A stretch of DNA of 33,691 nt, taken from the NCBI GenBank assembly GCA_903960945.1, contig CAJCCR010000420.1, positions 1 through 33,691 of the forward strand, read 5' to 3'. Below are positions 1,277-30,700 of the stretch, piece by piece. The notes beneath the pieces were generated by a model. It had not been told where the DNA came from and did no database searches. It saw nothing but the letters and a program-made list of their open reading frames with translations. The translations under genes were made by a program, and so were the position numbers. The DNA comes from an uncultured Planctomycetaceae bacterium. Its GTDB lineage: Bacteria > Planctomycetota > Planctomycetia > Gemmatales > Gemmataceae. Within the stretch, counting starts at the first letter, position 1, and each line of letters begins with the position of its first letter.

Positions 1277-2122
1277 TTACTTCTTCAACACTTTTTCAAG
1301 AAACGAATACAGTTCAATCGTTGGTTTGTCTTCAACTTTCCCAAGGTCTGCGTTAATGCTGCCATGGGTTTTGCCCTCAGATGGATAGGCACTAGCAGAA
1401 ATCCCTGCAGCCCTTAACTCTTTCACCAATCGCTGAGATTGACCGCCGGTTTCCGGATGGCCTGCTACATGCAATATTAAAAAGGGAGGTATATTTTTAC
1501 CTTTTGCTACATGAGTCACAGGCGATAATTCCTTCTGTTGTTTTTCATCCCCGAACTTCTTTCTATAACTGATTGCACTACGTTCAATAACCATTGCGAT
1601 TTGCATGGGTACATCATAGGTGTTGCCATCGACGGGCACGCAACCTTTGATAATCGTCAGGGGTAATTTTTCAGCTTTCAAGTAAGAGTCATCGGTGGAA
1701 AGAAGTGCAGCAAGTTGCGCCCCTGCGGAATGCCCCATAACAAGGAAGGTGCTGGGGTCGCCTCCATATTCTTTTGCATGATCAAAAACCCAGCGCATTG
1801 ATTTTGCGATATCTCCAGCCATTTCTTTGATGGAGGCAGCGGGGATTAAGCGATAATTGGTCGAGACAAAAATGAAACCTTTTGCGGTGAAGGCCTGGGG
1901 TTTGATTTGAACATCTTCCTTGTTGCCTGCTTGCCAGCCTCCCCCATGTATCCAAAATATGATCGGTAGGTTTTTTGCATCAGGCGGAGCGAATAGATCA
2001 AGGGTTTGCTTTTCGTTCTTCGTATCGGTGTAAGGAATATTGAGAAAGGCTTTGGGCTCTGCTGCAAATAATGGCGAAGAAAGGATAAGCATGGTAAGCA
2101 TGGGAATTAAGGTGGTTCGCAT
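1277..2122 (-). CDS. Exported alpha/beta hydrolase, BD-FAE-like esterase
   Basis: The start is placed at the ATG at 2122 because a signal peptide begins there (MRTTLIPMLTMLILSSPLFA) with AGGA 7 bp upstream; the frame is open further upstream without a signal. The product is 281 residues. The oxyanion-hole motif HGGGW is at residues 59-63, the nucleophile elbow GHSAGA has Ser132, and a likely catalytic His is in THGSI (His253). The fold matches bacterial esterases of the BD-FAE/carboxylesterase type, which hydrolyse ester side groups on polysaccharides or small esters. The loop where the acid of the triad usually sits reads HVAGHPETGGQ and has no Asp, so activity is uncertain. It is probably the first gene of a two-gene unit with 771-1244. 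Confidence 0.85.
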   Translation of the reverse strand: MRTTLIPMLTMLILSSPLFAAEPKAFLNIPYTDTKNEKQTLDLFAPPDAKNLPIIFWIHGGGWQAGNKEDVQIKPQAFTAKGFIFVSTNYRLIPAASIKEMAGDIAKSMRWVFDHAKEYGGDPSTFLVMGHSAGAQLAALLSTDDSYLKAEKLPLTIIKGCVPVDGNTYDVPMQIAMVIERSAISYRKKFGDEKQQKELSPVTHVAKGKNIPPFLILHVAGHPETGGQSQRLVKELRAAGISASAYPSEGKTHGSINADLGKVEDKPTIELYSFLEKVLKK

Positions 2123-3223: not shown

Positions 3224-4111
3224 ATGCGATTTGCAGCTTTGATGGCTTTACTTCTTTCAGTTTCTGCAACCCTTGCTTTTTGGGATGCACCAAAGTTGGA
3301 ACAGTTGCCTACTTCTGAAAAAGCAAAAAAAATCGTACTTATCGCAGGTAAACCCGAAGCCAAACCCACAGGCGAACATGAATACTTCGCAGGTATTGTT
3401 CTTTTGGCGAACATGCTTGAACAAACCCCGGGCGTGCATCCTATTTTAGTGCGAGATGGCTGGCCAAAAAATGAAAAAGTTTTTGATGATGCCTCTGCGA
3501 TCGTTTTTTTCTTAACAGGTGATGGTAAACAAGCCTATCTGGAACCTTCCAAACTTAAAGTAATCGAAAATGCAGTTTCCAAAGGTGCAGGTTTGGTTCA
3601 TTTGCATAATTGCATCGAATACCCTGCGGATCGCAAGAGCCTTGCATTGGAATGGGCAGGCGGCGTTTGGGAGAAAAGTATTTCTTGCAGAGGCCATTGG
3701 GTTTCAACGGTGGATCAGTTTGCAAAACATCCAATCACACGGGGAGTCACTCCATTCGAAGTTGATGAAGGCTGGTTGTTTCATATGAACTTTGCAGCTA
3801 AGGGTGTTACCCCATTAGTTATGATCAATCCTCCTGAAAAAATGCGAACCACAGCTTCATCTAAGAAGAATGCACCAAATCCCGAAACCGTTGGTTGGGC
3901 ATTTGAATCTTCCAAAGGAGGCAGGGCTTTCTCTTATACAGGTGGCCATTTGCAATCTAATTGGGGCAAGGATGGTTTACGCCAGTTGGTTGTCAATGGC
4001 ATGCTTTGGAGTGCCGGGTTAGAGATTCCAGAAAAGGGTGCGCCTAATAAACTCGATCCCGCTGACCTTAACAAGCACCTTGAAAATAAAGTCGCACCCA
4101 AGAAGAAGTAA
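3224..4111 (+). CDS. Exported ThuA-like protein
   Basis: A 295-residue protein with a signal peptide (MRFAALMALLLSVSATLA) and GGAG upstream of the ATG. The mature part follows the ThuA-like, glutamine-amidotransferase-like fold: KIVLIAGKPEAKPTGEHEY, then IVFFLTGDGKQAYL, GAGLVHLHNCIEYP with the His pair, HPITRGVTPFEVDEGWLF, and a final GRAFSYTGGH. ThuA proteins are linked to trehalose or other sugar use, and related exported forms are numerous in planctomycetes; the exact substrate is unknown. The end of the gene is duplicated: its last 66 bases plus GT recur at 5161-5228 with 85 percent identity, bracketing the toxin-antitoxin-like genes that follow. It lies 100 bp after the E2-like gene. Confidence 0.85.
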   Translation: MRFAALMALLLSVSATLAFWDAPKLEQLPTSEKAKKIVLIAGKPEAKPTGEHEYFAGIVLLANMLEQTPGVHPILVRDGWPKNEKVFDDASAIVFFLTGDGKQAYLEPSKLKVIENAVSKGAGLVHLHNCIEYPADRKSLALEWAGGVWEKSISCRGHWVSTVDQFAKHPITRGVTPFEVDEGWLFHMNFAAKGVTPLVMINPPEKMRTTASSKKNAPNPETVGWAFESSKGGRAFSYTGGHLQSNWGKDGLRQLVVNGMLWSAGLEIPEKGAPNKLDPADLNKHLENKVAPKKK

Positions 4112-4113
4112 GT
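4046..4113 (+). repeat. Direct repeat copy 1: 3' end of the thuA-like gene
   Basis: These 68 bases encode the last 21 residues and stop of the ThuA-like protein plus two bases. They align without gaps to 5161-5228 (58 of 68 identical). Similarity begins and ends abruptly on both sides. Confidence 0.9.
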
Positions 4114-4356
4114 CTAATAAGGCTGAAATAACACTCAAGATTTAAAATAAGCTCTTGGAAAAAACACCAAAAGTATGTTGTTTTAAGAATATGTAAACAT
4201 TTAGTTTTTGTGTTGTTAGAATACAATTTTAATGTACCAGAAGAATTCCTAGAAGAATGGTCATTGAGTTTAGAGGTTGTATTGAAAACATTTTGAGTTA
4301 ATTTAATTGTTGCATTTATATTTAACCCTTTTATAAAACCAAGTGACCTAATAAGC
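4112..4356 (+). promoter_or_regulatory. AT-rich leader of the toxin-antitoxin-like pair
   Basis: About 245 bp of strongly AT-rich sequence with no supported ORF on either strand. It separates the thuA-like stop from the kinase start and should contain the promoter of the pair. A TAGAAT hexamer near 4217 is a possible -10 element, but no convincing -35 partner was seen. Confidence 0.3.
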
Positions 4357-4962
4357 ATGTCACAAAATAAGAAAGACCATACGCCTAAGGTATATGTAAT
4401 TGCTGGTCCCAATGGTGCAGGTAAAACTACTTTTGCAAAAGAATATCTCCCTGGTTTTGCAAGCTGTTTAGAATTCCTAAATGCAGATTTAATTGCCGCA
4501 GGGTTAAATCCGTTTGCCCCCCAAAATGAAAATGTTCGTGCAGGCCGACTTCTCCTTTCTCGTATTCGTGAATTGAGACAGGAAGGCAAAGACTTTGGAT
4601 TTGAAACAACATTAGCAGGTCGCAATCATGCCCAGCAAATATCCCAATTAAAAGCCCTAGGTTATCGTGTAATTTTGTTTTTCCTTTGGTTACCGGATGC
4701 CAATTTTGCAGTACAGAGGGTTTTAGCAAGAGTGTTGCAGGGCGGTCATAATATTCCTGAAGTTGATATTCGCAGAAGATTTGAATCCGGGTTGGGTAAT
4801 TTATTTGAATTATACAGGCCTTTGGTGCATGAATTAGTGATTTATGATGGTTCCCAACTAGTTCCTAGATTGATTTCATGTGAGATAGAAGGTAATATGG
4901 AAATTATTGAGCCTGATTTATTTAGCTTAATATCTTTAGCGCAAAACAGAAAAAAACAATGA
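4357..4962 (+). CDS. Zeta-toxin-like P-loop kinase
   Basis: A 201-residue soluble protein with a Walker A motif GPNGAGKTTF at residues 17-26, followed by the FLNADLIAAGLNPF segment and GFETTLAG, both typical of the zeta-toxin/COG4185 'predicted ABC-type ATPase' family. Later come a predicted strand (YRVILFFLWLPD), the arginine-bearing helix VQRVLARVLQGGHNIPEVDIRRRF that would form the lid, and VIYDGS. Zeta toxins phosphorylate UDP-N-acetylglucosamine or related substrates and block wall synthesis; whether this one does so is inference. The start lacks a clear ribosome binding site. The stop overlaps the next gene by 4 bp (ATGA), so the two are translationally coupled. The unit is bracketed by copies of the thuA-like 3' end. 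Confidence 0.85.
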   Translation: MSQNKKDHTPKVYVIAGPNGAGKTTFAKEYLPGFASCLEFLNADLIAAGLNPFAPQNENVRAGRLLLSRIRELRQEGKDFGFETTLAGRNHAQQISQLKALGYRVILFFLWLPDANFAVQRVLARVLQGGHNIPEVDIRRRFESGLGNLFELYRPLVHELVIYDGSQLVPRLISCEIEGNMEIIEPDLFSLISLAQNRKKQ

Positions 4963-5150
4963 TAAATCAAGATCTCCCGAACCATAAAAAATCTACAAGT
5001 TCTATGCTTCTCGAAGTCCAAATAGCATTCAAGCAGGTAACCCTCAAAGTAATTGAAAAAGCACGCCAAACCAATACACCAATTATTGTGTGGGATAATG
5101 GAAAGACGGTATCGCTTTCCGCGGATGAAGCAGAAAAGCTTCAACAATAA
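4959..5150 (+). CDS. Small partner of the zeta-like kinase, putative antitoxin
   Basis: A 63-residue protein starting in the 4-bp overlap with the kinase gene. Its core (KVIEKARQTNTPIIVWDNGKTVSLSADEAEKL) has the helix, 'TPIIVWDNGK' strand and C-terminal helix seen in small proteins that commonly accompany COG4185 kinases. I infer it neutralises or regulates the kinase. The order is toxin first, unlike the classic epsilon-zeta pair where the antitoxin precedes. No DNA-binding domain is obvious, so autoregulation by this protein is not evident. Only 10 bp separate its stop from the second copy of the thuA-like gene end. Confidence 0.75.
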   Translation: MINQDLPNHKKSTSSMLLEVQIAFKQVTLKVIEKARQTNTPIIVWDNGKTVSLSADEAEKLQQ

Positions 5151-5160
5151 TTTAATTTTA

Positions 5161-5228
5161 AATAAACTAGACCCTGCAGATATTAACAAACATCTCGAAA
5201 ATAAAGTCGCGCCCAAGAAGAAGTAAGT
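5161..5228 (+). repeat. Direct repeat copy 2: displaced 3' end of a thuA-like gene
   Basis: The 68 bases still read in frame as the last 21 residues of a ThuA-like protein and its stop, with no start. Of ten differences from copy 1, nine are silent third-position changes and one gives Leu to Ile. That pattern means both copies diverged while coding for protein, so this is a stranded gene end rather than a neutral short duplication. Confidence 0.9.
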
Positions 5229-5258: not shown

Positions 5259-5294
5259 AACCAAGCCATGTGATTTAAAGCACACGGCTTGGTT
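5259..5294 (-). terminator. Terminator of the FG-GAP gene, possibly bidirectional
   Basis: AACCAAGCC (5259-5267) pairs with GGCTTGGTT (5286-5294), and the stem continues with TGTG/CACA after one mismatch. On the minus strand it is followed by TTTTTATACTTT, a proper U-tract, 20 bp beyond the stop of 5315-9394. Plus-strand readthrough from the kinase pair would also meet this hairpin. Confidence 0.8.
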
Positions 5295-5314: not shown

Positions 5315-8300
5315 TTAGCCTACAAATATTCCTTTTTTGTAATCTTGATCATCAGAAAAGAAGTCACTTAATATTTCATAATTGAGACCAGAATAAACTT
5401 TTACGCGGGGTCCACCGCCGGGCCCTGCGCCAGTAACAAGGTCTTCAACACCATCGTTATTGAGGTCGGAAATTCCAACCCTGATACCTCCCGAAAACAA
5501 ATCATCGCCATTCGTGGAGGAATCTGAGAATTCCATAAAATCACGATCTAAATTTAATGTTTCATAATCCCAAATTTTCACATTAGGACCACCACCTGCT
5601 CCAGGACCGGTGATTATTTTGAAAACATTATTAGCTGCATCATCAACGGAACTGGTATTAATTGCCCCGATTCCAATTATGCCCGCACTAACAAAGACAC
5701 CCCCGGTAAAAGATGGATCGTAAGCTAAAAATTCTTTTAGAATAGAAAGATTACTTCCATTAAATACCCTGACATGCGGGCCACCTCCAGGGCCTGCCCC
5801 GGTAATAATGTCAAAAATACCATCCTGATTAATATCAGCCGAGCTTACGCTGACACCCCCTGTAAAACTTAAATCGTAAGCAAAGAATGAGGCTATTGGC
5901 TCTCTTGTGAAAGGGTTGAAAATTTTCACATGGGGGCCACCCCCTGGACCTGCCCCAGTTATAATTTCGCCCAATCCATCACCGTTGTAGTCTCCAATCG
6001 AAACGGAGACACCACCCAGAAAAGAGGGATCATAGGCAAAAAAGCTGGAAATTTCAGCGCCTGTTAAACCGTCAAATGCGCGGATATGAGGGCCGCCACC
6101 TTGGCCCGCACCTATAACCACGTCGGAGTAGCCATCGCCTGTAATGTCGCCTGAAGCAACTTGCAAGCTTCCAGTAAATCCAGGAAAGACATCAAATTGT
6201 CGGATAACTTGATTATTGGAGTCGTATTGATTGACTGTAGAGCCTCCCACAAAAAGGTAATTAAAATTACCATTTTGACCTTTCCCATCAATATCATTGG
6301 CAACCAAAGGAATTGAAAGAATGGTGCTTGCCTGTAAGCCGGTTTTAACTTCTGTTGCAATTCCAACAACCGTTAAAGTAATGGCAGCTTCATTGGCCAA
6401 AACAATGGAAAGCCCATCAAGCTGTTCCGGGGTAAGCAGCCATTCCCCGTTTGACTGCTTGGTTCCAGCAGAAAGTACAGCATCATCAGGAACACCAGAA
6501 ATTACAACAGAAAGTGTTTCCAAAAGATCTTGATTTGATTTGGATATTTGAATTGGAACTTTTATCTGGCTTCGTTCATTACCATTCAGACCATTTGGCC
6601 CTTCCATATTTGGGCCATTGGGGCCTTGATTGATTCCATAGGATCTACCACCAAGGCCATCAACATTTTCTCCCATCGTGCCAGACCAAAAAAGGCCATA
6701 ATTTCCGGTACTATTTCGGGCATAAACAGGAAGGATTTGGGGGCCAGAGGTAACGGAATTTACTAATTGTTCCCCACTTTCAGGCGTTGCATCCGCCCTG
6801 AATTGTCGTTGATAAATTCCCCAACTGGAACCGTCCTGTTCTATGGTCTGCCAAGCAATCGCAAACCGACCAAATTGATCCACACCAATGGATGCAAATC
6901 TTTGTGGTTTTGGCGAAGTTTCATTTACTTGGAATTCTTGAGCCTGAGGCGATGTACCATCAGGTCTAAACTGTCGGGCAAACACATCCCAAGATGGCCC
7001 GGTTCCAGTTGCCTGATTAATACTCTGCCAAGCAACAACCATATCTCCTGCTGCATCAATTCCAATTGATGGGGCTTCCTGAGCATCTTTTACATAGACT
7101 GTAGCAAGGAATTCAGGATTTGGTGCTACTCCGTCTGCGTTAAACCATCGTACAAAAATACTTTTCTCCGTATCGTTTTCATCATTTGCAATATTGTGGT
7201 CACTTACCCACGCAATAGCAAACTGCCCATTAGCATTCATTGCAACCTTGGGCGATACTTGTGAAGTGGCAGTATTTGTATTTACACGGAAAATAGCTCC
7301 TGTTGCAGTTCCAGTTGCTGAAAAGCGCTGTGCATAAATCTCGGTAATATCCTCATCGCTTTCCTGGGCATCTGATTCCCAAGCAACAATAAAGTTTCCC
7401 TGAGAATCTGAGGCAATTGTTGGATGAGTCTGATTTCCCATTTTTTCAGGCGGAATACAAGAAAATTCCTCTCCACCCACGATAGTTCCAGATCCATCAT
7501 TTGTAAATATCCGCCCAAAAATGGATTCCACGGAAGGATCATTTTCTAATTCCCCTCTCACTTCACTTTGCCAAACTACTGCAAAGCCACCATTGGGAAG
7601 CGCACTAACAACAGGATGAGTCTGGTATCCTAGGGTGGTTTGGTTTATCAGGAATTTAGCGCCAATAAGAGTTCCATCGGGCGCGACAATTTGACCATAA
7701 ATGCCATAACCGCTGGCATCCTCGGGGTTTTCAAAAGATGCCCATGCTACTATGAAATTCCCATCAGAGAGTGCCGTGGCAGCATTTGGAGTGTCTTCCC
7801 CAGCACCTACGACACTAATCTGAAATTCCAAGCCGTTGACGTTCAATGCATCGGCGCCGGGTGATCTGTCGACCGATCCTGCGGAATCAAAAATTCTACC
7901 GAATAAGGATGGCTGATGACCACCACTACCTTCGATTCCTTCTTCTTCTGTGCCTTCCGCCCCTGATTCTCCACCATGGCTAGGTACAAAAGGGCCCGCC
8001 CAAACAACAATTGTTTTGCCATCTGGTGCCATACTGATAGTTGGTGTTGTTTGTGGACCTTTTTCGTTCACATTGATTAAAAAATCGTTGGAGTTAAGAA
8101 CATCATTCACATCTCGGGCATCTGATCCATCGGAATTAAATGCCCTGCCCACGACCCCCCAACTAAACGCATCTGTTTTCTGACTTTGCCAGGTAACTAG
8201 GTAATTACCGCTTTCATCTATGCCAACAGCAGGGGTTCTTTGTGGCTGTTTGGTTTGCGTATTTACAAGAATATTTGCTGTATCTAAACGATCTCCAGCG

Positions 8301-9394
8301 CTATCAAGCCTGATGGAAAAAACATCAGAACCAGAACCTTCATTTCCTTCAGCCTGCCATGCAAGAATAAAATTGCCTGAGGAATTCATTCCAACTGCTG
8401 GTTCGACTTGGTCTTTTTGTACTGTATCATTAGGGTCTGTTAGTTGGTAATAAGTATGAGCTTCATCTACGGGATTAATTTCACTGATTGGTGAAGAATA
8501 AGAATAAAGTGTTCCGCTGATCACAATAGATGATTCTTCCTCTCCGCCATCGTCTTCCCCGCCACCTTCCTCTCCTTCACCACCTTGAAGCGGAAGTATT
8601 ACCGGTATAGGTGCAGGCCCAGACCAAGCAATAATAAGCTTGCCGCCATCAGTTTCATTAAAGCCCATGGAAGCAGTTGGTTGTTGCTGGTCACCAGCAC
8701 CAGCGGTAATTTCAAAATCATTATCATTTACAAACATACCTTCACTCATCAAATCGAACTTCCCATACCTTGCATAAATATCGATTCCCGAGACGGTGGA
8801 ATTTTGATCGGATTGCCAGGCAATCGTGAAATTGCCTTCATTATCCATGGCTACTGTCGACCTAGTTTGATTTCCTTCTAAAACGGTGTTTACCATCAAT
8901 TCGTCCGAGACCAATGATAAATTAGTAGTTCCGTCAAAGGTTCCCACCTTATACATGATGTCGTAGGAATCCCCGCCATCAGTTTGGCTTTGCCAAGAAA
9001 TTATGACATTCCCCAAGCCGTCACTTCCCAAAGAGGGGCGGGATTGATTTCCCTGAATCGTATTGTTGACAAGTTGCGGAGCACCCACGGGCGTTCCATC
9101 AGCCATAAAACCTTGGGCATAAACCCCGATTCCGCTGCCATCTGTTCCCAAACTTTCCCACGAAACAACAAAATCCCCATTTTGATTTACAATAGCTACA
9201 CTTGGTGCCCCAGCCTCAGCACCTTGTGAATCAGAAATGGTGAATTGGGGCCCTAAAGGATTGGCGCTGGGGGTAATTCTATTTTCCATGAATTCCAATG
9301 CCGGCCTGAAACGAGAAGGGTGTTTTCTTGAAATGGAATTTGAACCTGAAGCAGAAATCAACTTTTTAAACCAATTTCGTGGTAAAAATCTCAT
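5315..9394 (-). CDS. Large exported surface protein with W-motif repeats and FG-GAP repeats
   Basis: The ATG at 9394 is chosen because AAAGGG lies just upstream and the N-terminus (MRFLPRNWFKK) matches other planctomycete surface proteins; the frame is open to 9466. The product is 1359 residues. Residues 33-42 hold the lineage-specific N-terminal motif (LEFMENRITP, usually LEDRxTP). Residues about 45-900 carry 14 repeats centred on a Trp strand (such as DFVVSWES, FAIAWQT), each followed by an Asp/Gly loop. Residues about 910-1040 resemble a cadherin/RTX-type beta domain (ISGVPDDAVLSAGT). The C-terminal 317 residues contain five FG-GAP/VCBS units with GAGPGGGPH loops and calcium-type DxNxDG sites (DYNGDG, DINQDG, DLNNDG). 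It is probably a secreted or cell-surface adhesion or binding protein. Its upstream region shares an ECF-like motif with the giant DUF11 gene. Confidence 0.85.
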   Translation of the reverse strand: MRFLPRNWFKKLISASGSNSISRKHPSRFRPALEFMENRITPSANPLGPQFTISDSQGAEAGAPSVAIVNQNGDFVVSWESLGTDGSGIGVYAQGFMADGTPVGAPQLVNNTIQGNQSRPSLGSDGLGNVIISWQSQTDGGDSYDIMYKVGTFDGTTNLSLVSDELMVNTVLEGNQTRSTVAMDNEGNFTIAWQSDQNSTVSGIDIYARYGKFDLMSEGMFVNDNDFEITAGAGDQQQPTASMGFNETDGGKLIIAWSGPAPIPVILPLQGGEGEEGGGEDDGGEEESSIVISGTLYSYSSPISEINPVDEAHTYYQLTDPNDTVQKDQVEPAVGMNSSGNFILAWQAEGNEGSGSDVFSIRLDSAGDRLDTANILVNTQTKQPQRTPAVGIDESGNYLVTWQSQKTDAFSWGVVGRAFNSDGSDARDVNDVLNSNDFLINVNEKGPQTTPTISMAPDGKTIVVWAGPFVPSHGGESGAEGTEEEGIEGSGGHQPSLFGRIFDSAGSVDRSPGADALNVNGLEFQISVVGAGEDTPNAATALSDGNFIVAWASFENPEDASGYGIYGQIVAPDGTLIGAKFLINQTTLGYQTHPVVSALPNGGFAVVWQSEVRGELENDPSVESIFGRIFTNDGSGTIVGGEEFSCIPPEKMGNQTHPTIASDSQGNFIVAWESDAQESDEDITEIYAQRFSATGTATGAIFRVNTNTATSQVSPKVAMNANGQFAIAWVSDHNIANDENDTEKSIFVRWFNADGVAPNPEFLATVYVKDAQEAPSIGIDAAGDMVVAWQSINQATGTGPSWDVFARQFRPDGTSPQAQEFQVNETSPKPQRFASIGVDQFGRFAIAWQTIEQDGSSWGIYQRQFRADATPESGEQLVNSVTSGPQILPVYARNSTGNYGLFWSGTMGENVDGLGGRSYGINQGPNGPNMEGPNGLNGNERSQIKVPIQISKSNQDLLETLSVVISGVPDDAVLSAGTKQSNGEWLLTPEQLDGLSIVLANEAAITLTVVGIATEVKTGLQASTILSIPLVANDIDGKGQNGNFNYLFVGGSTVNQYDSNNQVIRQFDVFPGFTGSLQVASGDITGDGYSDVVIGAGQGGGPHIRAFDGLTGAEISSFFAYDPSFLGGVSVSIGDYNGDGLGEIITGAGPGGGPHVKIFNPFTREPIASFFAYDLSFTGGVSVSSADINQDGIFDIITGAGPGGGPHVRVFNGSNLSILKEFLAYDPSFTGGVFVSAGIIGIGAINTSSVDDAANNVFKIITGPGAGGGPNVKIWDYETLNLDRDFMEFSDSSTNGDDLFSGGIRVGISDLNNDGVEDLVTGAGPGGGPRVKVYSGLNYEILSDFFSDDQDYKKGIFVG

Positions 9395-9847
9395 GTTTAA
9401 CCCTTTCAATAAAAAATGTGAAATTGGGACATCGCTAAACAGGAAATGAATGTTTGGCGATACCACCTTGCTAATTAATCAACGGTGTTCGCAACTTAAA
9501 CATGCCAAAAAAAATTGATTTTTATAAAAGCGACTGTTTTTGAAATTAGTTTTTCGAATGCAATCAATGAGCCCAGAATGTTTATTACCCAACGAGTGTT
9601 AAACATTAAACCAATCGTATAAAAATTATAAATTATTTTAGTTTGAGTTTTATTCTTGAGCCTACCGAAGAGGGGAAGTGCATTTGCCAAACAAGTTATT
9701 AAATCAAATTATTGTAATTCGTTTTTTGGCATCTACACTTTGTAGAACGATTAACAGCTATTAATCTGAGTTGCTTGAAACTAACTTGTGGATCTTATTT
9801 AACTAGGTGAATTATTATTTAAAGCCATTTGCATTTATGCTTTTACA
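9395..9847. other. 453-bp intergenic region, AT-rich
   Basis: It holds the leader and putative promoter of the FG-GAP gene in its first 125 bp. The remainder is AT-rich, with no RNA gene or supported ORF seen, and contains the 3' flank of the acyltransferase gene. The small ORF on the minus strand at 9496-9690 has no ribosome binding site or recognisable domain. Confidence 0.5.
9480..9517 (-). promoter_or_regulatory. Putative ECF-type promoter of the FG-GAP surface protein
   Basis: On the minus strand an eight-T run is followed by GGCAT (9502-9506), exactly 17 bp, then CGTTG (9480-9484), about 90 bp before the start codon. The same architecture (T run, GGCAA, 17 bp, CGTTG) occurs before the giant DUF11 gene. 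ECF sigma-factor promoters typically have GGAAC, 16-17 bp, CGT; assignment to that class is inference. Confidence 0.5.
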
Positions 9848-11548
9848 CTAAGCTTTACGGAACCAAGGCATTATTCGGCCATTCAAAAGCCATCCAATCC
9901 AAGTCGAACGAACCAGCAAATGATAACTGACAAGAAGCAGGGTGATCGTCGCAATATTGATCAGTAGGAATTTTAATAAAGAATTAATAGGCAATTCTCT
10001 AACAAGGAATTGCAACACTAACACTAAAGGCAGATGTACAATATAAATCCAATAAGAAGAATCCGATAAATATCGAATGAACATGTTTTCTTTCTTGATG
10101 AGTGCATGAAACATACCCATCATTCCAAATACCATGTTCCATATTAAAAGTGTTTGCATCAAAAGGTTCAAAGGTAAGTTGTCCTTGAATACAATTTCTG
10201 CAGGAAAAATCATGAACAAAGCTAATGGCAGCATGATGTACCAAAAGCGTGTGAGTTTACAGGCGTAATCATTTAAGTCAAAGTAGATCAAGCCGAAGCT
10301 GAAAAAGATCATGTAATAAAACAACATGTGTGGGGGTGGGAGTATCCCGGTATAAGTATCAGGGCCAAGTATTTCACCCATAAGGCAAAGTGGTAACAAA
10401 GGTGCTGGGATTAAAATATAAAGCATTGTCTTTTTAAGGATGCGCATGGCGTTGGTGTTTAAATTGCGAAATAAAAGGGACCCCAGATTGAAAAAAAGCA
10501 GAAATAATGGAAGCATCCAACAGAGAAACCAAAGAAACCAGAGGTGATGAAAAATACTAGTTTTAAATAAATGAACTGGTTTGTTACCGAAATTTATCTG
10601 AAAAGAAGTTGAAGTAACCCAAGATTGATAGCGTTTATAAAATCCCATTTGTTCTTTTGGTTTGTCTATTTCGACTGTATTGGATTGATTTTTTGAAGCG
10701 GGTGTTAAAAACTGGTTTAACAATAATCTGCTGCGAACACTAATTCTTCCTGAAGTTAAATCAGTTTCAGTGGGTGGTTGAATGCCAAGAATATTCAAAA
10801 TTGAGGTTGTGGTATTGGGATCTGCAAAAGTACCTTCCAGAGCGGTAAAGCCTGCTTTGCTGACTTTGCTGGCATTGGCACCATTGAATAATAGAAGTTT
10901 TACAATTTCATCTCTGCCGAAAAAAGCTGCGCCATGCAGTGCGGTGGTATCATCCTTGTTAGTTGAATTTACATCTGCCCCTAGCTTGATTAATGCGGAA
11001 ACTGTTTCGAGATCTCCTATCATTGCAGCCCATGAAAGAGGAGTTACCCCTAATTTTTTGTCTGGTTTTTCAACTTCACCGGGGTTGATGAGGTATAGAT
11101 TGATGGTTTTTCTGTCGCCTTTGCGGATTGCCCCTGCGAGCGAATTTTCATCCAAGTGCACACTTATCGAACCTGCTTTGACTGTTTCATTTGAAACATA
11201 ACTTAATAGTGGAATAATGGTGAAACACCCAATCAAGCAAGGTAGAAGAATGCGGAGTGTCCTTTGTAAAATCAATGATTTGATATTTCTTTTCCGGTAA
11301 ATCAGCATGGTAAAATAACCACTCAGTAGAAAAAACAAGGGCATTCGAAAGCTATGTACGAGTACTATGAAAAAAATAAAAATGGGAGGTTGTGTAATAT
11401 CCTGAACAGGCCAGGGAAGTGAAACAAAAGTTAAGGATGCATGCAATCCAATACCAAGAAACATGGCAAATGCACGCAAGGCATCCAAGTCATGTCTGCG
11501 ATTTTGAATTTGAATTTCTGGTGTTTCAAGTGTGATATTTTGGCTCAA
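9848..11548 (-). CDS. Membrane acyltransferase (acyltransferase-3 family) with inserted ankyrin repeats
   Basis: 566 residues, read from a TTG at 11548 with AGGA 7 bp upstream; no ATG precedes the conserved region. The N-terminal RRHDLDALRAFAMFLGIGLHA (conserved Arg and His36) and FRMPLFFLLSGYF (68-80) are the signature of acyltransferase-3 membrane O-acyltransferases, of the OpgC/MdoC-like type. FHHLWFLWFLCWM (333-345) resumes the family pattern, and several membrane helices follow to the end. Between them, residues about 134-259 form roughly three to four ankyrin repeats (GVTPLSWAAMIGDLETVSAL; TTALHGAAFFGRDEIVKLLL; GFTALEG). If the N-terminus is cytoplasmic, three preceding helices would put the ankyrin block outside the inner membrane. 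The gene starts 21 bp after the alginate-lyase-like gene, suggesting an operon that acylates and cleaves one polysaccharide. Confidence 0.85.
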   Translation of the reverse strand: MSQNITLETPEIQIQNRRHDLDALRAFAMFLGIGLHASLTFVSLPWPVQDITQPPIFIFFIVLVHSFRMPLFFLLSGYFTMLIYRKRNIKSLILQRTLRILLPCLIGCFTIIPLLSYVSNETVKAGSISVHLDENSLAGAIRKGDRKTINLYLINPGEVEKPDKKLGVTPLSWAAMIGDLETVSALIKLGADVNSTNKDDTTALHGAAFFGRDEIVKLLLFNGANASKVSKAGFTALEGTFADPNTTTSILNILGIQPPTETDLTSGRISVRSRLLLNQFLTPASKNQSNTVEIDKPKEQMGFYKRYQSWVTSTSFQINFGNKPVHLFKTSIFHHLWFLWFLCWMLPLFLLFFNLGSLLFRNLNTNAMRILKKTMLYILIPAPLLPLCLMGEILGPDTYTGILPPPHMLFYYMIFFSFGLIYFDLNDYACKLTRFWYIMLPLALFMIFPAEIVFKDNLPLNLLMQTLLIWNMVFGMMGMFHALIKKENMFIRYLSDSSYWIYIVHLPLVLVLQFLVRELPINSLLKFLLINIATITLLLVSYHLLVRSTWIGWLLNGRIMPWFRKA

Positions 11549-21726: not shown

Positions 21727-24700
21727 CTAGATTTTGAATAGTTTGTTGACGTCGTAAGCTAAATTGTTATTTGGAGTATCGTCTGTAACTCCCGATGTAG
21801 GCGCAATTTTAGCAATATTTATTATGTCTCCCATCGCTTTAGGGGATATCAAACCTTTTATTGTAATGGAAATGCCTTTTCCCGCCCCTAGGCTTAATCC
21901 ATTCCATAACCCTGTATTACTGTTATAAAACCCAGAAGAAGGCATTCCAAAGGTTGGGTTTAAAAACCATTCAGAGAAAATATTGTTTAGAATGAGACTT
22001 TTTATCGTGCTGGGGCCTTTATTGGTTATAGATACCGTATAGGTGTTATATGTCCCCGGTGCCACAGATTTTGTAGCATCTGCAAGCATTACAGAAAGGC
22101 TTGCGATTGGGGTAAGTGAATCCGTGTCAACAGATGTATTATTTGCTGTGTTTAAATCTGTCATACCACTTGGTGTTTTTACAGTTACGGTGTTGGTGAT
22201 GGAACCAGTTGCAGTAGGTGAGATGGTTCCAGTAAGAGTTATGGTTACGCTATTGCCACTTGTGAGGTTTAGCCCACTCCACAACCCTGTGCTGACATTG
22301 TAACTCCCTGAGGATGGGGTGCCAAAAGTTGCCCCAAGCAAGCTTGCTGGAATCACATCTGTAAGGGTAAATCTTACAACGGTGCTGGGCCCGTTGTTGG
22401 TGACGGTGATGGTATAGGTATTGCTGTTTCCTGGAACCACCGAGGTTTGACCATCAGTTTGGGTAACAACCAAATCAGCCTGTGGTGTCAGTAAATTAAT
22501 ATCACTTGCATTGTTATTTGATAACTTTGTATCTGTTACTCCATTGGGAGCAGCCACCGAAACGGTATTGGTTATTGAACCGGTTGCAGCAGGGGCGATT
22601 GTTCCGCCAAGGGTAATTCTCACGCTGTTGCCTGCACCAAGACTTAAACCACTCCATACCCCTGTAATATTATTATAAGTTCCCGACGATGGTGTTCCAA
22701 AGGTTGCATTTAGCAACTGTGCGGGAATGACATCTGTCATGGTGAAGCTACTAACCGTGCTGGGGCCGTTGTTGGTGACGGTGATGGTATAGGTTGTGCT
22801 GGTTCCAGGGACCACCGAGGTCTTGCCATCGGTTTGAGTGACTACCAAATCAACTTGCGGGGTAAGGGTGTCCACATCCGTGGAAAAGTTGTTGTCGGTA
22901 TTAGAATCGACATAACCATTGGCGGGGGAAACCGAAACAGTGTTGGTGATTGTGCCTGTTGCAGTAGGTGATACCGTACCACGCAGATTCATACTTACAC
23001 TCTTACCAGAAGCCAGATTCAGGTTAGTCCAAAGCCCAGTAACGTTGTTGTATGTTCCCGAAGATGGTGTTCCAAAGGTTGCATTTAGCAACTGTGCGGG
23101 AACGACATCAATCAATGTGAAACTACCTATGTTTGTTGATCCATTGTTGGTAACGGTGATGGTGTAGGTGTTGATGGTTCCTGGTATTGCAGAGGTCTTG
23201 CCATCGGTTTGGGTGACCGATAAATCCACTATTGAACCAAGTACATCAATATCAGTAGCACTGTTGTTTGCTGAATTGGTTTCAGTTACTCCGCTTAGCG
23301 GCGAAACCGAAACGATATTGGTGATTGTACCAGTTGCGTTAGGGTCAATGGTGCCAGTAAGGGTAATAGTTACGCTATTGCTTGAAGCGAAGGAGAGACC
23401 ACTCCAAACCCCTGAGGCGCTATTGTAAGATCCTAATGATGGAGTTCCAAAGGTGGCGCCTAATAACCCCGCAGGTATTGCATCAGTTAATGTAAAGCTG
23501 CTGATGGTGCTGGGCCCATTGTTGGTAACGGTTATGGTGTAGGTGGTAGAAGTTCCTGGAGCTACTGAGGTTTTGTTATCGGTTTGCGTTACTACCAAAT
23601 CAACTTGTGGAGTAAGAGTATCGAAATCTGTAGTACTGTTATTGTTTGAATTAATTTCGGCAACTCCGCTTAATGGCGAAACCGAAACGATATTGGTGAT
23701 AGAGCCAGTGACGCTAGGGTCAACAGTGCCAGTGAGAGTTATAGAAACGCTATTGCCAGAAGCGAGAGTTAAGCCATTCCAGAGGCCGGATACGCTGTTG
23801 TAAGTTCCAGAGTTGGGCGTGAAGACAGGGTTAAGCAAGCCAGTAGGAACAATATCATTCAATGTAAAGCTGCTGATGGTGCTGGGCCCGTTGTTAGTAA
23901 CGGTGATGGTGTAGGTATTGGAAGTTCCTGGAACTGCAGAAGTTTTGTTATCGGTTTGTGTTACTACCAAATCAACCTGCGGGGTAAGTTCGTTAGTATC
24001 AGTTGCGCTGTTGTTGGCAGAATTAGTTTCTGATACTCCGCTTAATGGCGAAACCGAAACGGCATTGGTAATAGATCCAGTGGCAGTAGGGGCAATAGTG
24101 CCAGTGAGGGTAATAATTACGCTATTTCCAGAAGCTAGGTTTAAGCCATTCCAAATACCCGAAACACTATTATAAGTTCCAGAGCTGGGCGAAAATACAG
24201 GATTAAGCAAACCAGCAGGAACGACATCAGCCAATGTTAAACTGCTGATGGTGCTGGGCCCGTTGTTAGTTACGGTGATGGTGTAGGCGTTGAAAGTTCC
24301 TGGCACCACTGAGGTTTTGTTATCGGTTTGCGTTACCGACAAATCGACTTCCGGAGTAAGGTCGTTAGTATCAGTTGCGCTGTTGTTGGCAGAATTAGTT
24401 TCTGATACTCCGCTTAATGGCGAAACCGAAACGGCATTGGTGATGGTACCAGTTGCGTTAGGAGAGATGGTGCCAGTAAGGGTAATGGTAACGCTATTGC
24501 CTGAACTTAAATTTAGGCCATTCCATACACCCGAACTGCCATCGTAGTTTCCAGAGGATGGTGCGCCAAAGGTTGCATTGAGTAAGCCAGCGGGTATGAC
24601 ATCGTTTAGTAAGAAGCCGTTAATGGTGCTCGGCCCGTTGTTAGTTACGGTGATGGTGTAGGTGTTAAAAGTTCCGGGCACCACCGAGGTCTTGCCATTC

Positions 24701-27700
24701 GTTTGTGTAACTCCCAAATCAACTTCGGGAGTTAGCGTATCAATATCGGTAGCACTGTTGTTAGCGGAATTGGTGTCAGTAACTCCACTAGGAGGGGAAA
24801 CTGAAACGATGTTGGTAACGGAACCAATTGCGGTAGGGTCAATCGTGCCCGTGAGAGTTATGGTCACGCTGTCGCCACTAACCAAAGTTAAATTATTCCA
24901 GATCTTGGTAATGGTATCGTAATTCCCAGAAGATGGATCCCCAAAGCTGGCATTAAGCAAGCCTGCAGGAATAAGATCATTGAGTAAGAAACTATTAATG
25001 GTGCTGGGTCCATTGTTAGTGACGGTGATGGTGTAGGTGGTGTTGGTTCCAGGAACTATCGAAGTTTTGTTATCGGTTTGCGAAACAGATAAATCGATCT
25101 CCGATTCCGATGTATTTACATCGGTAGCACTGTCGTTAGCGGAATTGGTATCTACAACTCCACTAGGGGGCGAAACCGAGACAACATTGGTAACGGAACC
25201 CGTATAGGCAGGGTCTATAGTACCAGAGAGAGTAATGGTCACACTATCGCCTGAAGCCAAGCTTAAGCCGTTCCAAACGCCCGAAGTTTCATCATAGGCG
25301 CCGAATGATGGAGTGCCAAAGGTTGCACCTAATAAACCAGCAGGAATGACATCAGTCAATGTGAAGTTGGTGATGGTGCTGGGCCCGTTGTTAGTTACGG
25401 TGATGGTGTAGGTGGTGTTGGTTCCCGCAATAGCGGAGGTTGTGCCATCAGTTTGGGAAACAGATAAATCAACCTGCGGAGTGAGGGTATCTTCATCCAT
25501 AGCACTGTTATTGGAAGATTCGATATCAGAATCTGAAGAAATATTTACCACGTTAATCATAGAACCAGTCAACGATGGCGAAATATTAAAGGTAATAAGA
25601 TAGGCGATGCTCATTCCTGAAGCCAAGCTTGTTATAGTGTCTGCTAATTCGCCCGTTCCAGAACTTCCATTTGTTCCTTCCCATAATGCTGAAATAACGC
25701 CAGTTGGAAGCAAATTACTTACTGTTACATTGGTTGCTGTGCTGGGTCCGGCATTATTGACGGTGATGGTATAGGTGTTGCTGGTGCCAGGTATTACGGA
25801 AATCTTGCCATCAGATTGCGTGACGGATACGTCCACCTGTGGGGTGAGTATGTCTTCGTCAACCGAGGTATTGTCCATCGGATCAGTTTCAAAATCTGTT
25901 GAAACATTGATCAAATTAACTACCGAGCCTGTCAACGACTCCGAGACAATGCAGGTTAGCGAATAGGTCACGCTTTCTTCGGAAGCCAGACTTACAATGG
26001 TGTCTGATAAGTTGCCATTTCCAGAGCTTCCGTTTGATCCATTCCAAACTGCTGATAACAATCCATCTGGCAATAGATCACTTACTTTAACATTGGTTGC
26101 TGTGCTAGGGCCGGAATTTGTGACGGTGATGGTGTAAGTGGTACTGGTTCCGGGAACTAATGAATTTACATCGTTGCTTCCTTTTACATTTATATTTACC
26201 TGGGGACTTAATGTGTCTTCATCAATGGTGGTGTTATTCAAGTTGTCTGTATCGTTATCTGTTTCAACACTTACGATATTGACTATCGAACCTGTTAAAT
26301 CTTCTGGAATATCAAGTAAAAGAAGATAATCAACGCTCTCGCCTGAATCCAATGTTGCGATGGTATCTTTTAATTCTCCAGATCCAGAACTATCATTTGT
26401 ACCTACCCACATTGGTAACTTAATACTATCTGGCAGTAAGTCACTTACTTTGATATTCGTAGCAGTGCTGGGGCCGAAGTTTGTCACAGTGATCATGTAG
26501 AACGAGGTTGTACCAGGAACTACTGCATTTCCATTGTTACCTGCCGTGACACCAATATCGACTTGAGGCGTCAAGATATTTACATCGGTGGCAGTGTTAT
26601 TCAAAGTGTTTGTATCATTGTCTGAAGTAACATTGACCTCGTTAATCAGGGAACCTGTTGCTGTACCCGCAATGTTAAATGTAATTTGATAAGTTACACT
26701 CTCGCCCGAAGCCAATGTTGGTATGGTGTCAATAAGTTCTCCTGTTCCTGAATTTCCATTTGATCCAGTCCAAATTGCTGATGTTACCCCATCTGGCAAC
26801 AAATCAGTTACCACCACACTTGTTGCTCTGCTTGAACCATTGTTGGTCACAGTGATGCTGTAGGTGTTTGTTGTGCCCGGGATTACGGAAGTCTTCCCAT
26901 CAGATTGGGTGACTGATAAATCTACTTCTGTTGTCAAGGTATCGATGTCGGTTGAACTATCGTTTGCAGAATTGGTATCAGTAACGCCATTAGGAGCAGA
27001 AATGAAAACAGTGTTGTTTATAGAACCAGTTACTGTGGGGTCAATAGTGCCTGTGAGGGTAATGGTAATGCTATCGCCTGAAGCGAGAGTTAAGCCATTC
27101 CAGAGGCCGGATACGCTGTTGTAAGTTCCAGAGCTAGGCGTAAAGACAGGATTAAGCAAACCAGCAGGTACTGTATCAGTTAATGTAAAGCTGCTGATGG
27201 TGCTTGGCCCGTTGTTGGTTACGGTGATGGTGTAGGTATTGGAAGTTCCGGGAACCACAGAAGTCTTGTTATCAGTTTGCGTTACTGATAAATCAACTTC
27301 GGGGGTAAGGGTATTAATATCATCTGCACTGTTGTTGGCAGAATTAGTTTCGGCAACTCCGCTTGGTGGCGAAACTGAAACGATGTTGGTGAAAGAACCC
27401 GTTGCTGTTGGGTCAATGGTGCCAGTGAGAGTTATGGTAACGCTATCGCCTGAAGCTAGGGTTATACCACTCCATATTCCTGTAATGCTGTTGTAAGAAC
27501 CCGAGGACGGTGTGCCAAAGGTTGCGTTAAGTAAGCTAGCGGGAATGATATCGTTCAATGTGAAATTGTTAATGGTGCTAGGACCAGAATTAATAACCGT
27601 GATGGTGTAGGTGGTGTTGGTTCCAGGAACGACAACAGAGTTGTTGTCACTTTGAGAGACAAACAAATCAACTTCGGGAGTAAGGGTATCGACATCTGTA

Positions 27701-30700
27701 GTACTGTTGTTATTGGAATTAATTTCGGTAACTCCGCTAGGTGCAGAAACCGAAACGATATTGGTAATAGAACCCGTTGCTGTTGGGTCGATGTTGCCCG
27801 TGAGAGTTATAGTTACGTTATCGCCTGAAGCGAGAGTAAAACCGTTCCAAAGGCCTGAAGCACTGTTGTACGATCCTGAACTGGGCGTACCAAAGGTGGC
27901 ATTAAGCAGGGCCGCGGGTACGGAATCAGTCATGGTGAAGCTGTTAATAGTGCTGGGGCCATTGTTGGTGACGGTGATGCTGTAGGCGTTGGAAGTGCCG
28001 GGAACTGCAGAGGTTTTATTATCGGTTTGGGTTATTGACAAATCGACTTGGGGAGTAAGGGTGTCGGTATCGGTGGAACTGTTGTTGGCGGAATTAGTTT
28101 CGGACACTCCACTTAAAGGTGAAACCGAAACAGTGTTGGAGATGGACCCAGTAGCGGTTGGGTCAATGGTGCCTGAGAGGGTAATGGTCACACTATTTCC
28201 AGAAGCGAGATTTAAGCCACCCCAAAGGCCGGAGGAACTGTTATACGATCCTGAACTGGGTGTGCCAAAGGTGGCATTAAGCAGGGCAGCAGGTATGGAA
28301 TCAGTCAATGTGAAGCTGTTAATCGTACTGGGACCATTGTTGGTGACGGTGATGGTGTAGGTGTTGGAAGTTCCAGGAGTAACCGAGGTTTTATTATCAG
28401 TTTGCGTGACAGACAAATCAACTTGTGGAGTAAGGGTATCGATATCGGTAGCAGTGTTATTAGATGAATTAGTATCGGATACACCGCTTGGTGGAGAAAC
28501 CGAAACGATGTTGGAAATGGACCCAGTAGCAGTTGGGTCGATGGTGCCCTCAAGGGTAATGGTAACGCTATTGCCCGAAGCCAGAGTTAAGCCATTCCAG
28601 ACGCCGGAGGAACTGTTGTAAGTTCCAGAACTGGGTGTGAATACAGGATTAAGCAAACCAGCAGGTATGGCATTAGTTAACGTTAAGCTGCTGATGGTGC
28701 TGGGCCCGTTGTTAGTAACGGTGATGGTGTACGTGTTGGAAGTTCCAGGAACGATAGAAGTTTTGTTATCGGTTTGAGAGACAGATAAATCGACTTGAGG
28801 AGTAAGGGTATCGGTATCAGTGGCACTGTTGTTAGATGAGTTGCTATCGGATAAACCGCTTGGTGGAGAAACTGAAACAGTGTTGGAGATAGACCCAGTA
28901 GCAGTTGGGTCAATGGTGCCCGTGAGGGTAATGGTAACACTATTGCCGGAGGCGAGAGTTAGGCCATTCCATAATCCTGTAGTACTGTTATAAGTTCCTG
29001 AGCTTGGGGTGAAAACTGGGTTGAGAAGTGCAGTAGGTAAGGAATCAGTCAGTGTGAAGTTGCTAATAGTGCTAGGGCCATTATTGGTGACGGTGATGGT
29101 GTAGGTGTTGGAAGTTCCTGGCACTACAGAAGTTTTGTTATCGGTTTGAGAGACAGACAAATCTACTAGGGAAGTAAGGGTATCTGTATCAGTAGCAGTG
29201 TTATTAGATGAATTAGTATCGGATACGCCGCTTGGTGGAGAAACCGAAACGGTGTTGGTAATGGAACCCGTTGCGGTAGGAGAAATCCTACCAGTGAGGG
29301 TCATGGTAACACTATTCCCGGAGGCTAGAGTTAGGCCACTCCATAATCCTGTAGTACTGTTGTAAGCCCCTAGGCTTGGAGTGAATACCGGATTGAGAAG
29401 TCCAGCAGGTACGGAATCAGTCAATTTGAAACTGCTAATGGTGCTAGGGCCATTGTTGGTGACAGTGATGGTGTAGGTGTTGGAAGTTCCAGGAGTAACC
29501 GAGGTTTTATTATCAGTTTGCGTGACAGACAAATCAACTTGTGGAGTAAGGGTGTTGGTATCGGTTGCACTGTTGTTGCCAGAATTTGTTTCGGACACAC
29601 CACTAGGAGCAGAAATCGAAATGGCGTTGGTGATGGAACCAGTGGCGGTCGGAGAAACCATGCCCGTGAGGGTTAAGGTTACACTATTTCCAGAAGCCAG
29701 AATTAAGCCATCCCAAAGGCCTGAAGCGTTGTTGTATAATCCTGAACTTGGGGTGAATACTGGATTGAGAAGTCCAGCAGGTACCGCATCATTTAATGTG
29801 AAGTTGTTGATGGTGCTAGGGCCATTGTTGGTGACGGTGATGGTGTAGGTATTGGAATTTCCCGGAACGATTGAAGTCTTACCATCAGATTGAGAGACAG
29901 ATAAATCAACTTGGGGAGTCAGAGTATCGACATCAGATGCCGTATTATTTGAAAGGTTCGGATCATCGACATTACTTGGGGCAGTAATCGTTACGGAATT
30001 GGTTAATGATCCTGTGGCTGAAGCAGAAACAGTACCGGTGAGGTTTATGGTCAGACTTTTGCCGGTCTTTAAGGTTATTCCATTCCAAAGGCCGGAGTTC
30101 CTATCGTAAGATCCAGAGGATGGAGAACCAAAGGTTGCGCCTAATAATCCTGCAGGAATTGAATCGATTAGCGTCAAACTTCTTACTGTGGTAGGCCCGT
30201 TGTTGGTGACGGTGATGGTGTAGGTGGTATTTGCCCCTGGAACCAGTTGGGAGGTTAGGTTTCTAACATTTACGGCGAGATCGGCTAATGGTATTGCATC
30301 GGTGAACGAGAAAGTTGCTATCTGGTCATCTGTTGTTCCTAAAATATCATCCAAGCCACTTCCTTTAGCGGTAAGAAGAAAAGTCTCGTTCAGGGAATCA
30401 TCAGGATTAACATACCAAGAGGTTTGGACAAGTCCGTTTGCAATACCATCAAAATCGCCAATTCCGCCATCGGTTACAATCCAGGCTTCATGACCATCCC
30501 CAGTGTTGTTTCCGAGGATATCATCAAGAGTTCCTAACTTTCCATCAGCCCCAGGGCCAATAATATGAACCACTTGAAATGTAATGTCAGAACCAGGCAA
30601 AAAATGATTAGCACTAATGATTGCAGTGCTTCCCGGTGGATAATCAGCAAGATCTGTGGACACATTAGGAATCAACAAGGATGATTGAGAGAGTAGGGAT

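Follow-up and report, generated by a model that had tools for sequence, protein, structure and literature searches.

Insertion with long target duplication is said to have been described for restriction-modification systems by Nobusato and colleagues in 2000 and by Furuta and colleagues in 2010. Another class of elements, the CIMEs, have kept their attachment sites but carry no integrase. For restriction-modification systems, insertion with long target duplication is cited in PMC3874152 and PMC3031569, and the duplications are given as long and variable, of about 100 bp (PMC3874152, citing Nobusato et al. 2000). At the R.PabI locus of H. pylori ELS37, the duplication was inferred to stem from DNA that came in through a homologous junction on one side and a non-homologous one on the other (PMC4615327). 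The islands of the SGI1 family, which are located at the 3′ end of trmE/mnmE, are about 42-47 kb long and have int and xis genes of their own (PMC4958241).

We analysed a stretch of 33,691 nucleotides (the window) in which a zeta-like kinase and a small partner gene lie behind a thuA-like gene and are bracketed by two copies of its 3′ end (Table 1). We see in the insertion at this site a variant of two known kinds, the insertion with long target duplication and the cargo-only islet; what is new is a second copy which, in the simplest reading, is partly foreign. With the restriction-modification insertions it has in common that a selfish unit of two genes without a recombinase is flanked by direct repeats of the order of 100 bp (here 68 bp with 85% identity) and that empty sites occur (genomes G005, G006 and G004). 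It differs in that the unit is a zeta-like kinase pair and the repeats are diverged gene ends. Furthermore, the two copies are not both derived from the resident gene: copy 2 goes with the module in its left part, and half of the stranded copy would thus be foreign rather than a fresh target duplication. The R.PabI locus is similar in that related incoming DNA leaves a partial gene duplicate which brackets the insert, but there the duplication has 1577 bp and the insert is an ICE of ~50 kb, as compared to 68 bp and a 1-kb pair at the thuA site. As in CIME-like islets, the 3′ end of a gene or tRNA gene is duplicated at the far side of an insert without integrase while the gene itself stays intact, which applies to thuA and to the tRNA-Phe and tRNA-Lys genes of the related loci L271 and L263. 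The modules described here differ from such islets in having one to three genes and long imperfect repeats. One related module (L146) occupies the same 18-bp site at the mnmE end as the SGI1-family islands, but has only two genes in a span of ~0.95 kb, with repeats of 120 bp.

The module behind thuA

Copy 1 and copy 2 of the thuA end are identical at 58 of 68 positions, with a spacing of 1115, and their homology stops 2 nt past the stop codon. Nine of the ten mismatches are at third codon positions, which confirms what the preliminary description had counted, and there is one amino acid change (Leu to Ile). That description had also placed the gene pair exactly between the copies. The copies and their positions were right, but a leader of 243 bp precedes the kinase start and a spacer of 10 bp separates the partner stop codon from copy 2. 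The kinase and partner ORFs overlap by 4 nt and are the only genes seen between the repeats, where no transposase was found. An integrase is likewise missing among the listed ORFs of the window, in agreement with the earlier view that the module has none that is visible. The bracket score at the thuA site was almost never reached in a cross-locus control, and the brackets in the window are beyond chance. An assembly artefact is not the cause, as module and second copy were found again in an independent genome, G003.

Table 1 Features of the window and repeats found at related loci. The first eight rows refer to the window.
Sequence	Feature	Position	Strand	Remark
Window	thuA-like gene, 295 aa, intact; 3′ end read as its own native one	3224..4111	+	Pfam ThuA PF06283, E=1.5e-13
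Window	Copy 1: last 21 codons of thuA, stop codon and 2 nt; host-type	4046..4113	+	
Window	Left border of the module and leader	4114..4356	+	Common to G003 up to 4278
Window	P-loop kinase of the Zeta_toxin family, putative toxin	4357..4962	+	PF06414, 43 bits; deleted in G003
Window	Small partner encoded downstream of the kinase (63 aa), putative antitoxin	4959..5150	+	97% aa identity in G003
Window	Copy 2: stranded thuA 3′ end, probably foreign in its left part	5161..5228	+	Sequence comparison of carriers
Window	Inverted repeat with 18-nt arms, terminator-like	5259..5294	.	Between copy 2 and convergent FG-GAP gene
L146	mnmE 3′ end repeated			
L090	gatB 3′ end repeated			
L100	3′ end of AIR-synthase-related (selD-like) gene repeated			
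L080	tspO 3′ end repeated			
L144	3′ end of PIN gene repeated			
L114	3′ end of metalloenzyme gene repeated			
L124	Repeat is 5′ end of downstream gene			
L145	Repeat is terminator of upstream gene			
L110	Repeat looks like partner remnant			
L281, reverse complement	ParE-type pair, 152-bp repeat, includes 5′ end of downstream gene	1023-1174 and 1831-1981		93%
L294	ParE-family locus, 66-bp bracket			

At a distance from the module, the window codes for a protein of 3043 aa (21727-30858), in which a unit of about 120 aa is repeated many times almost unchanged.

The thuA site in congeneric genomes

The genome of the window (G000) was compared with six congeneric genomes (G001-G006), with G004 as outgroup. 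thuA orthologues within the genus have 94-98% amino acid identity; the contig of G002 stops inside thuA and G001 has no thuA match. G005, G006 and the outgroup G004 have a single thuA end and no module. G003 has the same insertion as G000, with the same left border, partner and second thuA end, but a deletion that fuses window positions 4278 and 4919 has removed the kinase. As the outgroup is empty, an insertion is favoured, in line with the first of two explanations in the preliminary description. There, an empty site with a single end that matches copy 2 had been named as support for an insertion with end replacement; single ends were indeed found in three genomes, but copy 2 is about equally far from all congeneric thuA ends. 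In a tree of the upstream region, G003 groups with G002, and G005 with G006, so that the presence of the module is patchy; the tree allows for one gain plus loss as well as for two gains. The module is thus seen at the thuA site in two carriers, G000 and G003, both of which are fragmented draft genomes. A candidate for another stranded thuA end in G005 (C70) turned out to be a gene cut by the contig edge.

The preliminary description had offered, as its second explanation, that a tandem thuA-like pair has collapsed around the module. Although both copies look coding, as a collapsed pair would have them, tandem copies of thuA were found in no congener or family member, the paralogues are only 34-39% identical and are located elsewhere, and the outgroup and two close relatives are single-ended. 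Tandem collapse would also leave unexplained why the same anatomy occurs at mnmE, gatB and tRNA genes (see below), and we consider it very improbable.

The intergenic space between thuA and an acyltransferase gene also contains an FG-GAP-repeat gene coding for 1383 aa (window 5315-9466) in G000 and G005, which is absent from that space in G003, G006 and G004. According to this pattern, there has been another insertion at this spot, distinct from that of the module. In the acyltransferase segment (window 9850-11278), G000 and G006 are 97% identical as compared to about 91% in the neighbouring DNA and elsewhere, which points to recent recombination events among these species and to background recombination in the complex.

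Which of the two gene ends is foreign

The two carriers differ at 58 of 295 third codon positions of thuA. For comparison, we counted module sites that are mostly neutral (the leader from 4158 to 4276, the third positions of the partner and the left part of copy 2), and only 14 of 221 differ (Fisher p=1e-5). The interior of the module has thus been exchanged more recently than the hosts split. When the two carriers are compared over the first 38 nt of the repeat, 10 differences are found in copy 1 and a single one in copy 2 (p=0.007). A different picture is seen in the last 30 nt, where copy 2 differs at 6 positions, and in both copies the stop codon and the next bases are host-specific (TAAGT in G000, TAGAGCG in G003). 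A core of 17-21 nt near the stop codon is shared in the two carriers.

In the simplest reading, copy 1 is native, positions 5161-5198 of copy 2 were borne by the module, and 5199-5228, with the stop codon and flank, are host-type, so that a crossover would have occurred within the last ~25 bp of the repeat. The mapping of this crossover rests on few bases, as there are only two carriers and the informative stretches are short. Since copy 1 goes with the host, and copy 2 in its left half with the module, the end of thuA has probably not been replaced. The preliminary description is therefore supported in its proposal that the module brought along a diverged gene end of a related strain, but not in letting it replace the end of the resident gene: thuA functions with its native end, and it is the incoming end that became stranded.

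In a strict version of gene-end replacement, the present end of thuA would be module-borne and copy 2 would be the displaced native end. This is in accordance with the host-type right side of copy 2 and with the single end of G006, which has 7 differences to copy 2 of G000 and 11 to copy 1. Many tRNA-associated islands, moreover, look like gene-end replacement. At the thuA site, however, the carriers differ in copy 1 to the extent known from native ends, but not in the left part of copy 2. Strict replacement is therefore unlikely.

The left border has a history of its own. The first 44 bp after copy 1 show 9 differences between the carriers, a host-like divergence, while the next 119 bp of the leader show 7, partly at the edge of the deletion in G003. 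This suggests that the insert may be old in both lineages and that exchange took place inside it later on. The host-like border would also fit an ancestral insertion with long target duplication, followed by vertical descent, with loss of the module via the repeats in G005 and G006 and divergence of the copies in place. Duplications of about 100 bp are known for restriction-modification units (PMC3874152), clean loss through the repeats is possible, and the patchy distribution on the tree is compatible with it. However, the similarity of the two carriers is much greater in copy 2 and in the module interior than at host third positions. Moreover, if a non-coding copy had decayed neutrally, nine of ten differences would not have come to lie at third positions, even though copy 1 could have contributed some. 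We thus regard such a purely vertical history as improbable, although less so than strict end replacement.

We consider it probable that a recombinase-less two-gene module entered behind thuA by recombination at the shared gene end. The incoming DNA would have consisted of the two-gene unit and, on its far side, the thuA 3′ end of a related strain. This incoming end would have been linked to the resident flank by a crossover within its last ~25 bp (5199-5226). The host's thuA would have kept its own end as copy 1, and the hybrid copy 2, with a foreign left and a resident right part, would have been left stranded after the module.

The kinase and its partner

The kinase of the window (201 aa) is a member of the Zeta_toxin family as judged by its profile match, with 43.2 bits to PF06414 at a curated cut-off of 22.3. 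In an alignment of seven kinases, the P-loop GPNGAGK[ST] and the motifs NAD, FETTL and RR are conserved, and the family's P-loop pattern GxxGxGK[ST] is thus accompanied by conserved acidic and arginine positions. Membership in this Pfam family is what the locus has in common with the epsilon/zeta (PezAT) systems. In contrast to these, the partner is encoded downstream, and it has no match to a known antitoxin family or any other entry in Pfam or NCBIfam. Between thuA and the kinase there is no ORF of at least 50 aa on the + strand that could be an upstream antitoxin of the epsilon/PezA type. For these reasons, the locus is not an epsilon/zeta operon. The order of kinase and then small partner is conserved in other Planctomycetes, in other phyla and on Synechocystis plasmid pSYSG, and this recurrence in other Planctomycetes and on pSYSG indicates that the pair is a real unit. 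The kinase may function as toxin and the partner as antitoxin. That the partner persists in G003 after the loss of the kinase, and that decayed kinases occur elsewhere, is compatible with a toxin but is no proof.

On pSYSG (L305, 745-5426), the pair is found among DUF433/PIN, restriction subunit S, nucleotidyltransferase, DUF4433 and macro-domain genes, a region named as a defence island in a published survey (PMC4963859).

Behind a tRNA-Lys gene, locus L307 has a three-gene module with a small gene of the VbhA family (PF18495, E=1.4e-7; 6855-7052) directly upstream of the zeta-like kinase. Its position beside a kinase is odd, as VbhA-type proteins are known as Fic antitoxins.

Brackets at related loci

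Related loci were collected with the seven-kinase alignment, and the 500 bp upstream of the kinase were compared with the 900 bp downstream for direct repeats of at least 40 bits. Such brackets were found in 12 of 103 loci but only at 4 of 458 pseudo-module positions from the same loci (p=8e-7, per position). At the level of loci the enrichment is borderline (p=0.05), each control locus having been sampled many times, and the test per position is the like-for-like comparison. Half of the brackets (6 of 12) represent the 3′ end of the upstream gene, 3 are intergenic, and the others are specified in Table 1. A second sample from other genomes gave brackets in 4 of 26 usable loci, which is qualitative support only, as the flanks were wider than in the controls; two of these represent the 3′ ends of tRNA-Phe and tRNA-Lys genes. 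It had been suggested at the outset to look for other kinase-pair modules followed by stranded gene ends, in order to see whether this is a general mobile unit; that such modules exist is borne out by these cases, which come from distant bacteria.

Six coding cases taken together have 50 mismatches, of which 32 affect third positions (p=9e-6), so that here, as proposed earlier for the thuA site and upheld there, the repeat copies have diverged as coding sequence. When the gatB, mnmE and selD-like ends were compared with relatives of their hosts in a donor test, the two copies could not be separated. About 85-90% of the related loci have no detectable bracket; either the repeats decay or there are other routes of entry. 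No bracket was found for viral relatives of the kinase. Bracketing is not private to kinase pairs, as a few brackets also occur among the ParE-family loci used for comparison (L281, L294).

Several candidates were not accepted as gene-end brackets. The repeat of L135 is a microsatellite, those of L110 and L137 look like kinase or partner remnants, and those of L134, L085, L150, L273 and L250 are intergenic or unassigned. Also rejected was L129, where a repeat with 70% identity lies beside a tRNA-Asn gene and a recombinase is found inside.

In L231, a relative of the gatB locus L090, gatB is directly followed by a decayed kinase, in the position that the intact-looking one has in Methylomonas lenta.

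Homologous recombination or an integrase in trans

The module may have moved by homologous recombination at the shared gene end. It would then have been either a Campbell-type circle or a linear fragment, in which one junction would be homologous and the other illegitimate. Alternatively, an integrase might act in trans on sites at 3′ ends. We infer the circular or linear intermediate, the acting enzyme and the direction of transfer. All bracketed gene-end cases need a junction inside the end that is shared by donor and recipient, and ordinary homologous recombination there is sufficient for them.

As a subtype of entry at a shared gene end, gene and tRNA 3′ ends could be true attachment sites, and the two-gene units cargo-only islets mobilized by an integrase in trans. 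In some cases this is favoured by the use of tRNA 3′ ends, the duplicate in L271 and L263 following directly after the partner gene, and by the mnmE copies of L146. These end in TTCTGTATTGGGAAATAA, which is identical at 17 of 18 positions to attL of the trmE island MGIVchHai6, TTCTGTATTGGGAAGTAA (PMC4958241). In L129 (3621-6381), the order is tRNA-Asn gene, diverged repeat of 255 bp, kinase, serine recombinase of 436 aa and second repeat, and this is possibly a compact integrative element that carries a kinase. The upstream gene is intact and co-directional with the kinase in all nine gene-end cases as compared to a background of 68%, which is weak evidence. On the other hand, attachment cores are much shorter and less diverged than most of the brackets, which have 50-120 bp. 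A Pfam search of the main ORFs in the neighbourhood of the two tRNA cases, up to a distance of about 7 kb, gave no integrase, nor is there one among the listed ORFs of the window, and most related modules have no visible recombinase of their own. A 26-base pattern of the thuA end was not found in viral contigs. We know of no integrase that has thuA, gatB or tspO as its target. Taken over all cases, we hold an integrase in trans to be possible but the less likely route, and sequence alone cannot separate it from homologous recombination.

Implications

Our proposal for the thuA site, that a two-gene module entered at the shared gene end, can be extended, if only tentatively. Zeta-type kinase pairs, together with at least some ParE pairs, might be widespread mobile units of ~1 kb without a recombinase, which enter at the 3′ ends of conserved genes and of tRNA genes in a fixed orientation, carry a foreign end as landing homology and leave it stranded, and reuse classical sites of integrases, of which the mnmE end is one.

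It is a long-standing question how small toxin-antitoxin units can move if they have no recombinase. A diverged gene end that has been left stranded can be read as a footprint, which marks an insertion, dates it and can point to the donor lineage. Stranded gene ends allow for a simple genome-wide search for such units, and particularly for defence genes. That brackets recur at tRNA ends and at the trmE/mnmE site ties these modules to integrase biology, so that their mobilization in trans becomes testable.
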